From contig NZ_NSKC01000004.1 in the NCBI RefSeq assembly GCF_002286985.1, positions 1-64,000 of the forward strand: a DNA stretch of 64,000 bases, read 5' to 3'. How positions within the stretch are numbered: the first letter of the stretch is position 1; each line of letters starts with the position of its first letter. A model generated the notes under the pieces. It saw only the letters and a list, made by a program, of their open reading frames with translations. It was not told the origin of the DNA and did not search any database. This stretch comes from Halorubrum salipaludis. Lineage in GTDB: Archaea > Halobacteriota > Halobacteria > Halobacteriales > Haloferacaceae. Shown one piece after another: positions 7-63,946 of this stretch. Position numbers and translations under genes: made by a program.

Positions 7-1269
7 ATGAGCTACGAGAAGGTCGACGTCCCTGCGGACGGCGAGGCGATCGAGCTGGCGGACGAGGAGACGGGAGAGCTGACGGTGCCGGAGAACCCGA
101 TTATCCCGATCATTTACGGCGACGGGATCGGGTCGGACGTGGGACCGGCCGCCCAGAAGGTACTGGACGCGGCCGCCGAGGCCACGGGCCGGTCGATCGC
201 GTGGATGCGCGTCTACGCGGGCGAGAGCGCCCGCGACAAGTACGGCGAGAACCTGCCCGAGGACACGGTGTCTGCGATCCGGACCCACCGCGTCGCGATC
301 AAGGGCCCGCTCACCACGCCCGTGGGCGCGGGCTTCCGCTCGCTGAACGTCGCGCTGCGCAAGACGCTCGACATGTACGCGAACGTCCGGCCGACCTACC
401 ACCTCGACGGCGTGCCGTCACCCGTCAAAAACCCCGAGGCGATGGACATGGTCACGTTCCGGGAGAACACCGAGGACGTGTACGCCGGCATCGAGTGGGA
501 GGCCGGCACCGACGAGGTCGAACAGGTCCGCGAGTTCGTCGAAGACGACATGGGCATCGACGACATCATCCACGACGGTCCCGTCGGGATCGGCGTCAAG
601 CCCATCTCCGAGTTCGGCTCGAAACGCCTCATCCGTGAAGCGATCGACTACGCGCTCGCCAACGACCGTGACTCCGTCACCCTCGTCCACAAGGGCAACA
701 TCATGAAGTTCACCGAGGGCGCCTTCCGCGACTGGGGCTACGAGCTCGCCGACGAGGAGTACGGCGAAGACGTCCTCACCGAAGACGAGCTGTGGGAGGA
801 ACACGACGGCGAGCAGCCCGACGGCACCGTAGTCGTCAAAGACCGCATCGCCGACAACATGCTCCAGCAGGTGCTCACGCGGACGAGCGAGTACGACGTG
901 GTGGCGACGATGAACCTCAACGGGGACTACTTCTCGGACGCGGCCGGCGCCCAGATCGGCGGACTCGGCATCGCGCCCGGGATCAACCGCGGCCACGGCC
1001 GCTGTCTCGCCGAACCCGTCCACGGCTCCGCGCCCAAGTACGCCGGCGAGGACAAGGTCAACCCCACCGCCATGATCCTCTCAGGCCGCGAAATGCTCGA
1101 CTACCTCGGCTGGGACGACGCCGCCGACCTGGTGCGTGACGCCGTCGAAGAGACGATCTCCTCGGGGAAGGTCACCTACGACCTCCACCGCCAGATCGAC
1201 GGCGGCGAAAAGCTCGCCACCAGCGAGTTCGCCGACGCCGTCGTCGAAAACATCGAGAACCTGTCGTAG
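7..1269 (+). CDS. icd: isocitrate dehydrogenase (NADP-type)
   Basis: Decarboxylating isocitrate dehydrogenase of the citric acid cycle: isocitrate to 2-oxoglutarate plus CO2, cytoplasmic. The 420-residue protein has the beta-decarboxylating dehydrogenase fold, with the nucleotide-side start IIYGDGIGSDV near residue 36. The substrate loop GAGFRSLNVALRKTLDMYANVRP (read in two parts) holds the serine and arginines that bind isocitrate. VTFRENTEDVYAGIEW follows, and the C-terminal half carries LNGDYFSDAAGAQIGGLG and the cofactor motif HGSAPKYAG. Length matches archaeal and bacterial NADP enzymes. The ATG lies six bases inside the window edge, so its promoter is not visible. The gene stands alone, and an 8-bp-arm hairpin follows the stop. 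NADP rather than NAD preference is inferred from family similarity. Confidence 0.95.
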   Translation: MSYEKVDVPADGEAIELADEETGELTVPENPIIPIIYGDGIGSDVGPAAQKVLDAAAEATGRSIAWMRVYAGESARDKYGENLPEDTVSAIRTHRVAIKGPLTTPVGAGFRSLNVALRKTLDMYANVRPTYHLDGVPSPVKNPEAMDMVTFRENTEDVYAGIEWEAGTDEVEQVREFVEDDMGIDDIIHDGPVGIGVKPISEFGSKRLIREAIDYALANDRDSVTLVHKGNIMKFTEGAFRDWGYELADEEYGEDVLTEDELWEEHDGEQPDGTVVVKDRIADNMLQQVLTRTSEYDVVATMNLNGDYFSDAAGAQIGGLGIAPGINRGHGRCLAEPVHGSAPKYAGEDKVNPTAMILSGREMLDYLGWDDAADLVRDAVEETISSGKVTYDLHRQIDGGEKLATSEFADAVVENIENLS

Positions 1270-1377: not shown

Positions 1378-1628
1378 GTATATGGACAACCCCCGATCGC
1401 GGATCGGCGGCGAACACCTCCAAAGCTCCGGCTGCTCACTTATGAATAGTTGACAACAAATCGCCGGAGAGCGCCTCCAAAGCCACACCCGTCCGGGGCT
1501 GCACGGCACCTCATGCCTCCCCAGCCTCGCCGCGGCCGCTTTTAAGCGGCCGCGACTCCCTCGCGCGTGCGGTTCGCGCCGCGTTGCGGCGCTCACCGGC
1601 ACGCGCCGCCGCAGATCGATTTATAGGG
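1378..1628 (+). repeat. dispersed hairpin repeat, copy 1
   Basis: This fills the 372-base gap between icd and the Lrp gene. From left to right it holds a module GCGGATCGGCGGCGAA followed by CACCTCCAAAGC, and a second, weaker CCTCCAAAGC near 1478. Next comes the conserved block CCTCCCCAGCCTCG, then an 11-bp-arm hairpin (1531-1554) and the block ACTCCCTCGCGCG. A GCGTGC...GCACGC pair encloses an inner hairpin (1576-1592), and the copy ends with TTTATAGGG. The blocks recur at 7.1-7.3, 43.9-44.2 and 61.7-62.0 kb. The left boundary is approximate. I see no gene in it. Confidence 0.75.
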
Positions 1629-1641
1629 AATCGCCGCTCGT

Positions 1642-2055
1642 CTACCCCAGCCGCTCGTCGAGGATCAGCCGCGTCTTCGTCGACTTGACCTCGTCCATCT
1701 CCCTCGCCTGCGAGATGAGCTCGTTGACCGCGCGCGTGTCGACGGCGTCGACGACGAGGACGATGTCGTCCTCGCCGGAGACCTGCCAGACGAAGTCCAC
1801 CTCCTCCCAGTCGACCATGCGCTCGCCGACGGCGGCGGTGTCGACGTTCATCTCCACCGAGATCTCGATCATCGCCTTCACGTTGCCGGTGCGGGTCGTG
1901 ACGGTGAACCGCTCGATGATCCCCTCCTCGGTCATGCGGTCGACGCGGTTGCGGACCGTCCCCTCCGACGTGCCGACCCGGTCCGCAATCTCCGTGTAGG
2001 GGGTCCGCGCGTCCCGTCGCAGTATCGAGAGGATCCGGCGATCGAGGTCGTCCAT
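1642..2055 (-). CDS. Lrp/AsnC family transcriptional regulator
   Basis: A 137-residue feast/famine regulator. The N-terminal winged HTH (about residues 1-50) starts MDDLDRRILSILRRDART and has the recognition-helix region GTSEGTVRNRVDRM. The C-terminal RAM/ACT-like ligand domain (about 60-137) contains VSGEDDIVLVVDA. Family members bind DNA as dimers or octamers and usually sense amino acids. The gene diverges from carA, and a 21-base palindrome in the shared 96-base promoter region is the obvious candidate operator. I infer autoregulation and control of carA, possibly in response to an amino acid such as glutamine or arginine. The effector cannot be read from sequence. Confidence 0.92.
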   Translation of the reverse strand: MDDLDRRILSILRRDARTPYTEIADRVGTSEGTVRNRVDRMTEEGIIERFTVTTRTGNVKAMIEISVEMNVDTAAVGERMVDWEEVDFVWQVSGEDDIVLVVDAVDTRAVNELISQAREMDEVKSTKTRLILDERLG

Positions 2056-6757: not shown

Positions 6758-7260
<503 letters not shown>

Positions 7261-42932: not shown

Positions 42933-43823
42933 TCACTCGACGAGTCGCTCGATCTCCGTGACGAGGATGCCGGTCGCGCCGACCGACTTCAGCTCCGAGA
43001 TCGTCGCGAACACGTCGCGCTCCTCGACGACGGCGTGGACCGCGACCATGCCGTTGCCGTCCTCGTCGGCCTCGACGTTCATCACCGTCGGGCCGCCGAG
43101 CCCGGGGATCACGTCTTTCACCTCGTCGAGCCGCTCCTTGGGGGCGTTCATCATCAGGTACCGCCGACCGTCGGCCGCGAGGACGGACTCGAAGGCGGTC
43201 AGCACCTGCTCGACCTTCGGGTCGTCGACCACGTCGGATCGGGCGAACAGCCGCACCGAGGAGTCGAGCACGTCGTCGATCACGGCGAGCCGGTTCACCT
43301 TCAGGGTCGTCCCCGTCGAGGTGATGTCGACGATGGCGTCGGCCATGTCGACGTGGGGGGTCAGCTCCGTCGCGCCCGTTACGGTGACCACGTCGGCGTC
43401 GACCCCCACGCGGTCGAGGTAGTCGCGGGTGACCGCCGGGAACTCGGTGGCGATCGTCCCGCCGGCGAGGTCCGCGACGCTCTCGATGTCGCCGTCCTCC
43501 GGCGCCGCGAGGACGAGCTTACACGAGCCGTATCCCAGATCCAGGAGGTCGACGAGGTCACCCTCTTCGGCCGCGCTCGCGGAGTCAGCGACACCGCCGG
43601 ACTCCGCGGCCTGATCGAGCCCCGTGATCCCCACGTCGGCGGCCCCGTCGCGGACGTACTCGGGGATGTCGGCCGCCCGGGCGAACAGCACCGTCACGTC
43701 GGGGTCGACGGTGTCGGCGTACAGCTGGCGGTCGGCGGTCTCCTCGACGTGGAGCCCCGCGCGCTCTAAGAGCGAGAGCGTCGGATCGTGCAGGCGGCCC
43801 TTGTTGGGGACGGCGATGCGCAT
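42933..43823 (-). CDS. hisG: ATP phosphoribosyltransferase, long form
   Basis: First enzyme of histidine synthesis: ATP plus PRPP to phosphoribosyl-ATP. The 296-residue protein starts [23 protein letters not shown]. It has the periplasmic-binding-like catalytic domain with the PRPP motif [18 protein letters not shown]-terminal ACT-like domain (about 225-296, [24 protein letters not shown] and onward) is the site of histidine feedback in long-form enzymes, so no HisZ is needed. The upstream open frame to 44297 is not coding. Its promoter appears to be the outward TATA box at the end of a dispersed repeat. Confidence 0.95.
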
Positions 43824-43894: not shown

Positions 43895-44249
43895 ACTTAT
43901 AAATGACCTCGTGCGGAGGCGCGCGCCTCCGAGCGGCCGGTAGGCCGCGAGTAGCGAGGGACCTTCGGTCCCTCTGACAGCCGGCGGCGAAGCCGCCGGC
44001 GAGAGCGCCGCGCGAGGGACGCGGTGAGCGCTCGGAGAGCGCGAACCGCGAGGCTGGGGAGGTGTGAGGTGCGGGGTAGTGCGGTGCGGGTGGGACTCGA
44101 AGGGGCAGTCGCGAGGCGGGCGCAGGTGACGCAAGGACCGCAAGGAAGGGAGCGAGCAGCGCGAGCGACCGACGAGGACCGCAGCGAACGTGCGCCCGCC
44201 TCGCGACTGGGGCTTCGGGGCAGTTCGTGTCGGTCAGTAGTTTATAAGT
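43895..44249 (-). repeat. dispersed hairpin repeat, copy 2, with 9-bp terminal inverted repeats
   Basis: This fills most of the 486-base gap between hisG and a membrane gene. Ends are ACTTATAAA (43895-43903) and TTTATAAGT (44241-44249), exact inverted repeats. In minus orientation it carries GAAGCCCCAGTCGCGAG, a 19-bp inverted pair (44106-44124 with 44191-44209), CCTCCCCAGCCTCG, a compound hairpin (44020-44050) and GTCCCTCGCGCG. An array of four hairpins follows (43980-44000, 43956-43974, 43933-43948 and 43915-43930). No target duplication or transposase is seen. The rest of the gap (44250-44309) holds nothing recognisable. Confidence 0.8.
43897..43903 (-). promoter_or_regulatory. hisG TATA box formed by the repeat end
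   Basis: Read on the minus strand, TTTATAAGT at the edge of the repeat lies 74-80 bases before the hisG ATG. No other TATA-like sequence lies in between (that stretch is GC-rich apart from AAAACG). Expected leader about 50 bases. Confidence 0.45.
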
Positions 44250-44309: not shown

Positions 44310-44753
44310 TTACCCCTCTGTCGCGCCCAACCTCGTCCGAACCAGCCAGTACGCGACGGGGAGACAGCAGACGAACGCGAATGGCCAGACGATCATCTGT
44401 GCGATCGGGTCGGGCGGCGACACGAGGCTCCCCACGATCAGCCCGCCGATTCCGGCGACTGCGACGGCGGCGGCGGAGCGCTCCCATCGAGACGGCGGAT
44501 GCTCGCGCGATCGTCCGCGACGCCACCACAGCAGGTAGTACAGTAACACGACGCCCGAAAGCGGCGCGACCACGCCCCAGAAGGCCGGATAGTCGCTTCC
44601 GCGAGCGTGCGCGTCGAAGTTGATCCAGACGCCGGTCGCCATCAAGACGAACAGGAGGAGGGCCATCCCGAGCACGACGATGGGCGGGAACGCGAGGGAC
44701 ACGGGCGGATTTCTGTCGGGCGAGTCATCAGTGTGATCCCTGCGAGCGTCCAC
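44310..44753 (-). CDS. membrane protein of unknown function
   Basis: A 147-residue protein from a GTG start with a polar tail ([18 protein letters not shown]). It has four hydrophobic helices: about 20-42 ([20 protein letters not shown]), 57-76 ([20 protein letters not shown]), 92-110 and 118-138. A basic loop ([16 protein letters not shown]) lies between the second and third. I do not recognise the family. It diverges from uvrB. Confidence 0.55.
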
Positions 44754-61700: not shown

Positions 61701-62048
61701 TTTATAAGCGATTGGCGATGTTGCGGTGAAGACCTGCAAAGCCCCAGCCGCGAGGGCGGCGCACGCTCGCTGCGCGCTTCGGTCGCTCGCGTTACTCGCT
61801 CCCTGCAGTGCTTACATCGTCATCAGAACGCGAAGCGTTCTGATTGGCTCACGAGAGCTCCGCTCTCGTGAACGCCTGCGCCCGCCTCGCGACTGCCCCT
61901 TTGAGTTCCGCCCCGCACAACACCGCAGCCTCACGCCTCCCCAGCCTCGTCGGCCGGCGCATATAAGCGCCGGCCGACTCCCTCGCGCGTGCTGCTCGGC
62001 CGCAGGGCGGCCTCGCAGGCACGCGCCACCGCAATTTTGTTTATAAGT
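61701..62048 (+). repeat. dispersed hairpin repeat, copy 3
   Basis: This fills most of the 619-base gap before the surface-protein gene. Ends are TTTATAAGC (61701) and TTTATAAGT (62040-62048); another TTTATAAGT lies outside it at 61667. Blocks in order: GCAAAGCCCCAGCCGCGAG, TCGGTCGCTCGCG...CTCGCTCCCT, a 10-bp-arm hairpin with GAA loop (61822-61844) and a 9-bp-arm hairpin (61849-61871). Next come CTGCGCCCGCCTCGCGACTG, CCTCCCCAGCCTCG, an 11-bp-arm hairpin with an A/T loop (61950-61977), ACTCCCTCGCGCG, and GCGTGC...GCACGC. The remaining 137 bases are the promoter region of the next gene, with ACTTGTTTAAATAC near 62068. No gene seen. Confidence 0.8.
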
Positions 62049-62185: not shown

Positions 62186-63946
62186 ATGCGACGGGTTCTC
62201 ACGTTCTCGGTCGTCGTCGCCGCGATAGCCCTCCTCTCGTTCGGCGTCGGCGGGGTGGTCGCCGCCGGGCCCGCGACCGGACCGTCGGTGGCAATTTCGA
62301 GTGACGCGCCGGCCAGCGCGACCGCCGCGGAGTGCGACGCGGGCGCCGGAACCGACCTCGTCGGCTGCTGGAACGGGACTCACTACGAGGAGGACCTCTC
62401 GTTCAACCAGTCTGACGGCCTGACGGAGGCGGAGCTGGAAGCGCTGACCGACCTGACGATGGCCCGCGTCGAGCACGTCCGCGAGCGCCCCTTCCGCGAG
62501 GACGTGCCGGTCGAGACGGTCGCGCGCTCCGAGTTCATGAACGACTCCGCGGGCGGCGGCGCGGGCGGCTCCGGCGCCGAGTTCCAGCGCTGGAACGACC
62601 AGGTGTGGAAGGCGCTGTTCGTCGTCGGCGAGGACGAGAACGCCTCGGACGCGATTGACGGCGTCTTCGGCGGCGCGGTCTCGGGGTTCTACTCCCCGGC
62701 GGAGGACCGGATCGTCCTCGTCGTCCCGGAGGGCGAAGACCCGCAGATCGACCCGTCGACGCTGGCACACGAGCTGGTCCACGCGATGCAGGACCAGTAC
62801 CACGACCTCTCGAACCCCCGCTACGTCGGCGCCACGCAGGACGCCGACCTCGCGGTCGACGGGGTCGTCGAGGGCGAGGCGGTCCACATCGAGGAGCGAT
62901 ACGACGAGCGCTGCGCCGCCAACTGGAGCTGTCTCGCGCCGCCCGACTCCGGCGGTGGCGGCGGGACGACGCCCGACTACAACTTCGGCATCCTCCAGAC
63001 CGTGCTCCAGCCCTACGGCGACGGGGCGCTCTACGTCGAACGGCTCGTCGACGAGGGCGGGTGGAGCGCCGTCAACGAGACGATGAACGAGCCGCCGGCC
63101 GCGACCTCCGAGGTGATCCACCGGGAGCCCGACTACGAGACCCGCGAGGTGTCGTTCGAAGACGCGGCCGAGGGCGGCTGGGAGACGTACCCGAACCAGG
63201 GCGTCGACGGCGCCGACACCGCCGGCGAGGCGTCGATGTTCGTGATGTTCTGGTACCAGAGCTACGAGTACCGGCACGCGGTGTTGGACCCGGACGCGAC
63301 GATTCGGGAGAACGTCCAGATCCACACGCAGACGGACGAGCGGCTCCGGACCCGCATGAACTACAACTACGCCCACGAGTCGACCGACGGCTGGGCGGGC
63401 GACGAGCTGTATCCGTACCGGAACGGCGGGAACGCGACCGACGGCGAGGACGGCTACGTCTGGGTGACCGAGTGGCAGACGACCGCGGACGCGGCCGAGT
63501 TCCGCGAGGCGTACCTGCGCATGCTGACCGCCCACGGCGACGACGAGTACGCCGACGGCGTGGTGTACGAGATCGAGGACGGCGACTTCCGCGGGGCGTA
63601 CGGCGTCGAGCGCGACGGGACCACGGTGACGGTCGTGCACGGCCCCGAGCCCGCGGACGTGCTCGAACTCCGCCCCGACGCCGGGTTCGACCTCCCCTCG
63701 ACCGACGACGGTGACGGGGACGAGACTGACGGCGGCGACGAGACTGACGGGACCGACGGCGACGACGAAAGTGACGGGACCGACGGCGACGACACCGACG
63801 AGACCGACGACGGGAGCGACACCGGCTCCGACGGCTCCGGCGGCCCCGACGCCGCCACCGACGACGGCACGCCCGGGTTCGGCGTCCCGGTCGCGGTCGG
63901 GGCCCTGCTCGGGGCGGCCCTCGTCGCGCGTCGCGTGCGGTCCTGA
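62186..63946 (+). CDS. Hvo_1808-like surface protein with HELVH motif and PGF-CTERM anchor
   Basis: A 586-residue exported protein. A signal peptide (MRRVLTFSVVVAAIALLSFG) cuts near residue 28. A large extracellular domain carries the zinc-peptidase-like motif HELVH (195-199) in STLAHELVHAMQDQYHDL, with a possible third ligand in VVEGEAVHIEERYDE. A Thr/Asp/Gly-rich linker follows (about 505-560). The C-terminus is a PGF-CTERM signal: TPGFGVPVAVGALLGAAL and basic RRVRS, recognised by archaeosortase A for lipid anchoring. The family is known as Hvo_1808-type surface proteins, and peptidase activity has not been shown. A TATA-like CTACTTATC lies about 28 bases upstream. Confidence 0.88.
   Translation: MRRVLTFSVVVAAIALLSFGVGGVVAAGPATGPSVAISSDAPASATAAECDAGAGTDLVGCWNGTHYEEDLSFNQSDGLTEAELEALTDLTMARVEHVRERPFREDVPVETVARSEFMNDSAGGGAGGSGAEFQRWNDQVWKALFVVGEDENASDAIDGVFGGAVSGFYSPAEDRIVLVVPEGEDPQIDPSTLAHELVHAMQDQYHDLSNPRYVGATQDADLAVDGVVEGEAVHIEERYDERCAANWSCLAPPDSGGGGGTTPDYNFGILQTVLQPYGDGALYVERLVDEGGWSAVNETMNEPPAATSEVIHREPDYETREVSFEDAAEGGWETYPNQGVDGADTAGEASMFVMFWYQSYEYRHAVLDPDATIRENVQIHTQTDERLRTRMNYNYAHESTDGWAGDELYPYRNGGNATDGEDGYVWVTEWQTTADAAEFREAYLRMLTAHGDDEYADGVVYEIEDGDFRGAYGVERDGTTVTVVHGPEPADVLELRPDAGFDLPSTDDGDGDETDGGDETDGTDGDDESDGTDGDDTDETDDGSDTGSDGSGGPDAATDDGTPGFGVPVAVGALLGAALVARRVRS

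Follow-up and report, generated by a model that had tools for sequence, protein, structure and literature searches.

Three large copies and a reduced one of a dispersed repeat lie in the 64,000-nt stretch of Halorubrum salipaludis DNA analysed here (the window), and their hairpins stay paired while the sequence of the arms changes from copy to copy. What kind of element is this, and is its structure kept as RNA or as DNA? An earlier note on this DNA had named the copies and claimed that they share several sequence blocks and carry different hairpins between them. Direct reading of the sequence confirmed copies 1, 2 (inverted) and 3 at the positions listed in Table 1, and a different strong hairpin was indeed seen in each of them between CCCCAGCCTCG and TCCCTCGCGC. 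The claim on shared blocks stood for CCTCCCCAGCCTCG, which is exact in these three copies (1516-1529, 44049-44062 on the minus strand, and 61936-61949) and has at least one mismatch elsewhere in the window; it did not stand for CAAAGCCCC, which is exact only in copies 3 and 4 and, taken alone, is not significant in the 64-kb window. Copy 2 has CGAAGCCCC in place of CAAAGCCCC—a compensated variant, because the partner arm has also been altered (CTTCG)—and copy 1 has only CAAAGCTCC and CAAAGCCAC. The reduced copy lacks the CCTCCCCAGCCTCG core and retains a TTATAAG box, a single CAAAGCCCC unit, a hairpin and a remnant of stem C. The second stem described before, GCGTGC...GCACGC, is real and corresponds to stem C, which in copy 2 takes an enlarged form.

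Copy 1 sits between two convergent genes (7-1269, plus strand; 1642-2055, minus strand), copy 2 is flanked by hisG (42933-43823, minus strand) and a predicted minus-strand gene (44310-44702), and the gene starting at 62186 on the plus strand is transcribed away from copy 3. Helix P0 of copy 2 encloses a GGG/GGG loop, helix P1 and a rod with tandem GA mismatches; that of copy 3 encloses P1, the rod and an inserted double-hairpin module (about 61819-61873).

Table 1. Copies of the element in the window and their parts (strand: folding strand)
Feature	Position	Strand	Details
Copy 1, partial, without long stem A	1378-1628	-	fold z -3.8; R1 match 1509-1606
Copy 1 hairpin B	1529-1556	-	GTCGCGGCCGC...GCGGCCGCGGC on the minus strand
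Copy 1 stem C	1563-1607	-	bulged C, 3-bp GGT/ACC helix, tandem GA loop, apical hairpin
Copy 4, reduced, core lost	7107-7260	-	
Copy 2, complete element	43895-44249	+	fold z -5.8
Copy 2 TTTATAAG box	about 43896-43903		
Copy 2 stem C	43917-44019	+	enlarged by extra hairpins; ends in core block GCGCGAGGGA (44010-44019)
Copy 2 hairpin B	44020-44049	+	CGCGGTGAGCGCTCGGAGAGCGCGAACCGC; followed by core GAGGCTGGGGAGG
Copy 2 helix P0	44098-44217	+	CGAAG 44098-44102 with CTTCG 44213-44217
Copy 3, complete element	61701-62048	-	fold z -6.3
Copy 3 helix P0	61737-61903	-	CAAAG 61737-61741 with CTTTG 61899-61903
Copy 3 hairpin B	61949-61978	-	GTCGGCCGGCGC...GCGCCGGCCGAC
Copy 3 TTTATAAG box	about 62040-62047		

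A common architecture underlies these copies when each is read on a single folding strand, which is likely the plus strand of the window for copy 2 and the minus strand for copies 1 and 3. From 5' to 3', the element consists of a TTATAA box, stem C, the core block GCGCGAGGGA, hairpin B, a second core block (GAGGyTGGGGAGGnnTGAGG, also given as GAGGCTGGGGAGGyGTGAGG), a G-rich linker and P0, followed by the GGG/GGG loop, P1, the rod, a tail and another TTATAA box. Stem C (GCGCGTGC...GCACGCGC) combines a bulged C, a variable 3-bp helix, tandem GA/GA mismatches and a variable apical hairpin; hairpin B has the constant 5' foot GGGA; P0 typically pairs CAAAG with CTTTG; and P1, of about 19 bp, leads into a rod built of 2-bp helices separated by tandem GA mismatches. 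The constant blocks are mostly unpaired and purine-rich, and the helices around them vary yet stay paired. The predicted RNA folds of all three large copies are more stable than those of dinucleotide shuffles (z-scores in Table 1). Double-hairpin modules with conserved linkers (e.g., CGTGATGACGA and TTGCAGCCGG) occur at several set places inside elements; one of them, M1, was seen in loci L012, L023, L026 and L178 and another, M2, in L018, L033 and L091, and one module can be nested in another (the CGTGATGTCGTCAGAA insert). Some copies (L003, L005, L008) are preceded by tandem repeats of about 57-75 bp that are exact or nearly so and include a TTATAA box and a CAAAGCCCCAGCCGCTCG unit.

To place the window copies in a broader context, the whole 3.5-Mb genome and those of other haloarchaea were searched. 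The gapped motif CCCCAGCCTCGN{10,40}TCCCTCGCGC occurs 63 times in the genome, against 0 occurrences of its reversed control, so the repeat seen three times in the window is not due to chance. A covariance model built on stem C and hairpin B (R1) found about 122 matches in H. salipaludis at E<=0.001—thus many copies beyond those of the window—and 139 in one single-contig relative, with matches in all 35 genomes sampled from the same genus. Across an order-wide sample, R1 matched in 45 of 243 genomes and 10 of 77 genera, and two genomes of another family held 57 and 76 matches (E<=0.05). A pattern search using sequence only recovered the element in Halorubrum, Halorussus, Halosimplex, Haloparvum and Halobellus. 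In a genome of a third family (L178) the architecture is the same and P0 is different, with UGAAAG/CUUUCA arms around GGGGC loops. Additionally, in genomes of another family (f17; L173, L181, L188, L194) the P0/P1 arm after the core is replaced by a different 3' part ending in (A)TAGCTAGCT, and some loci of other genera (L209, L278, L201, L280) have two model matches, one on each strand, within about 100-350 bp.

Pieces of the element were also found on eight haloarchaeal plasmids, and no match was obtained in phage records or viral contigs. The rod part alone, 80-85% identical, is present on plasmids of Halorussus, Natrinema, Natrononativus and Natronococcus, and may thus spread separately from the core. 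Two contigs of the H. salipaludis assembly (G000:C23 and G000:C27) both start with what appears to be the same copy (L043 and L053, at position 1), which suggests that the assembly breaks at these repeats. Scans against Rfam gave 0 matches in the 64-kb window at the gathering threshold, and for four loci at E<=5 the single match was to an unrelated miRNA; these scans gave no recognisable covariance-model match to a group I or group II intron or to another Rfam family. No description of the element was found in the literature covered, subscription papers lying outside that coverage. The repeat is, then, an undescribed, dispersed non-coding element that is absent from Rfam and reaches up to about 140 copies per haloarchaeal genome.

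The pairing of the variable arms was compared with that of re-paired or shuffled controls, and the within-copy pairing exceeded them for stem C, hairpin B and P1. In stem C, 99% of cells are paired and 9 of 17 pairs are altered on both sides; its 3-bp helix exists in 23 distinct arm pairs that are 77% Watson-Crick, compared with 43% after re-pairing (maximum 64%). Among 77 distinct hairpin B inserts collected by sequence alone, with no pairing requirement, 40 have arms that are at least 7/8 Watson-Crick (null mean 7, maximum 13), and several further inserts pair except for tandem GA. P1 is 90% Watson-Crick against 71% when re-paired, an excess also seen in a genus-wide replication. The two arms of P0, which span 80-300 nt, combine as CAAAG with CTTTG in 86 cases, CGAAG with CTTCG in 15 and otherwise in 6, the genus-wide replication giving 51 and 11 versus 6 others. 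Among the 30 pairs compared across other genera, 27 show changes on both arms (20.7 in shuffles) and 88% of cells were paired (64% shuffled, 20-46% slid), in an alignment that was fitted to the model and is thus biased in favour of the structure. Between the helices, the loops that are not complementary are mostly retained. Selection for structure, as proposed in the earlier note, is thus supported, and arms that vary without keeping their pairing are not what was found; taken together, these patterns suggest that natural selection acts on the shape of the element, probably as RNA.

The question of which strand folds was addressed through its mismatches and loops. On the inferred strand, G-U pairs outnumber A-C pairs by 52 to 18 (p=6e-5, with P0 and hairpin B not included—an optimistic value that, like the other p-values here, ignores the kinship of the copies and overstates the evidence) and by 23 to 9 in other genera. 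Hairpin B was left out of the pooled count because its strand signal is not uniform, being 6:0 in one class by hand reading and 3:5 in the set collected by sequence only; the mismatches in P0 favour the opposite strand, with A-C over G-U. Of the 15 tetraloops in stem C, at least 12 conform to GNNA, and these, together with the tandem GA/GA mismatches, make sense on the inferred strand and support it. Folding energy alone cannot pick the strand, since the opposite strand of copy 2 also folds well (z -5.5). The TTATAA box on the inferred strand peaks sharply 18-22 nt before stem C, a gap shorter than the usual archaeal TATA-to-start distance, so a transcription start there would not fall before the whole of stem C; by our own reading of the sequences, TTATAA at the other end of the element has a promoter-like spacing for the opposite strand. 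The constant purine loops, the strand signal and the long-range pairing favour a structured RNA, and from these sequence features we infer that the folding strand probably acts as RNA rather than DNA. With a probability of roughly 0.5, we read the repeat as a haloarchaea-wide dispersed non-coding element whose G-rich strand would fold, most likely as an RNA of about 240-350 nt.

The main rival to this RNA reading is a role at the level of DNA, in which a folded single strand or cruciform would be bound by a protein of the nucleoid, of repair or of transposition, with its hairpins maintained as DNA in the manner of REP/BIME elements; we hold it to be about half as probable. Triloops, which are better tolerated in DNA than in RNA, make up 66 of the 87 loops of stem C, and tandem PyGAPu mismatches are stable in DNA too. 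The genomic setting also recalls REP elements: 0 of 113 copies overlap a called gene (calls from a simple codon model written for the analysis), and 51 of 100 copies in this genome lie between convergent genes, compared with 18 of 98 gaps without a copy (p=1.5e-6). The inserted modules, most of which share one orientation while some are reversed, fit DNA as well, as may a G-rich strand with several GG tracts in K+-rich cells. However, an excess of G-U over A-C on one strand is unexpected for a two-stranded structure, and the one-strand signals argue against a simple double-stranded cruciform. On a chromosome assembled as one contig (G027) the copies are randomly spaced and show neither strand runs nor a replichore strand bias, which argues against a lagging-strand mechanism; this role and one in chromosome architecture were both rejected.

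Like REP/BIME, the element comprises many dispersed, intergenic palindromic copies near gene 3' ends, with arms that vary and pairing that stays. REPs are single hairpins of 20-40 nt with a GTAG/GGAG foot and a RAYT partner, whereas the element described here measures 240-350 nt or more, has several helices, a long conserved purine core and GGGA at the foot of hairpin B. A genome search for a stand-alone Y1 (RAYT) transposase found none: the one PF01797 match adjoins a TnpB-like gene and is an IS605-like TnpA, and the REP/RAYT explanation was discarded on this ground.

How the hairpins change was examined at sites shared with a close relative (G012; hisG 95% identical). Of 40 testable copies in that genome, 14 lie at sites occupied in H. 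salipaludis in the same orientation and 1 in the opposite one; re-insertion at hot spots is disfavoured, because mixed orientations would then be expected. In gap-trimmed identities over 7-16 pairs, the outer 5' flank is more similar at shared sites than in a non-orthologous control (0.90 vs 0.76), whereas the interior is no closer than between unrelated copies (stem C 0.84 vs 0.84, rod 0.82 vs 0.81, hairpin B 0.87 vs 0.82), implying that hairpins turn over as cassettes. Moreover, about 18 of 30 species, by reading, carry an element at the site upstream of hisG, and its hairpins differ among them; in one locus there (L096), the element appears to be interrupted by an insertion that has a transposase-like reading frame. 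The type of hairpin B is not associated with that of stem A (p=0.44) and only weakly with that of stem C (p=0.001). The paired changes on both arms reported earlier are therefore to be understood differently: pairing is kept, but most of the change is whole-hairpin replacement, not stepwise paired substitution. The alternative raised alongside, insertion of hairpins at a set place, also proved apt, as modules do sit at set positions; retention of structure and exchange both hold. The simplest account combines inherited sites, exchange of hairpins between copies via the conserved blocks and selection for pairing. At another locus, two species have the element and four have gaps of only 24-53 bp, indicating that gain or loss of the element also occurs.

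Such filled and near-empty sites also fit non-autonomous, MITE-like mobile DNA, whose internal hairpins would be passengers devoid of cellular function and whose place in convergent gaps would reflect harmless insertion. Small size is a further likeness, and a subset of copies (L013, L022, L035 and others) is enclosed by terminal inverted repeats of about 26 bp (GATCGATAGCGGGAGTGnGTATnGCA, also written GCGGGAGTGnGTATnGCA) some 320-610 bp apart; the pieces on plasmids agree with mobility too. We nevertheless regard this explanation as improbable. A passenger should decay, yet the core is intact and pairing is kept under constraint in many copies of several genera; many copies, copies 1 and 2 among them, show no terminal repeats, so that the structured core also occurs without them; no clean target duplication was found, no autonomous partner was identified, and no long element bearing the GATCGATAGCGGGAGTGnGTATnGCA ends was seen in this genome. 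The closest published haloarchaeal elements are the PATEs of Haloquadratum walsbyi, which are likewise non-coding, dispersed, palindromic and strongly diverged between copies (PMC3119063). Their palindromes are near-terminal and related to IS605 ends (PMC3119063), whereas the hairpins here are internal and accompanied by conserved single-stranded blocks, and no IS605 end was noticed on inspection.

Two further explanations appear very improbable. A transcription terminator or 3' UTR processing element of the neighbouring genes would account for the enrichment in convergent gaps, but the copies show no clear orientation preference between tandem genes (16 vs 23), and a terminator would need neither the conserved purine core nor the long arm. 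Template switching at quasi-palindromes, a known process in bacteria that copies one arm to the other, could yield the many perfect palindromes by mutation, free of selection, but it would have made the loops complementary too, whereas the bulged C and the tandem GA and GGG/GGG loops recur across copies. On that ground it was discarded as the main cause; P0 pairing over such distances and the G-U/A-C asymmetry are also at odds with it.

Returning to the favoured reading of a folded RNA, its layout would comprise a 5' stem C, the purine core, hairpin B, the G-rich linker and a long closed arm formed by P0/P1 and the tandem-GA rod. The loops and purine core may be recognised by a protein or folded in three dimensions; the conserved blocks would let copies swap hairpins by recombination or gene conversion, and copies no longer able to pair would be lost to selection. 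The element is probably also mobile, given the empty sites seen in some related species and the MITE-like terminal inverted repeats of a subset of copies. Ornate large structured RNAs (OLE, GOLLD, ROOL, HEARO) are large, multi-helix and covarying, with conserved purine loops and peripheral hairpin insertions, and the element resembles them in all these respects; it differs in having tens to about 140 copies per genome, no Rfam match, and no phage or protein-gene association found. Integron attC sites also conserve structure with very variable arms and favour one strand, as does the element, whose fold is far more complex and in which no R/R' boxes were noticed. Tentatively, at somewhat less than even odds, we propose that these copies could represent a new class of large structured archaeal RNA—with tens to about 140 loci per genome, helices that act as cassettes shuffled between loci, and a purine core and fold conserved across several haloarchaeal families.

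If this is true, a well-studied archaeal group would harbour an abundant, undescribed class of structured elements that is missing from Rfam. Having many paralogous folds per genome, inherited sites and fast-changing helices, the family would offer a natural experiment—suited to measuring selection on structure, gene conversion among dispersed repeats and the rules of loop conservation—and the element would be directly testable in culturable Halorubrum strains.
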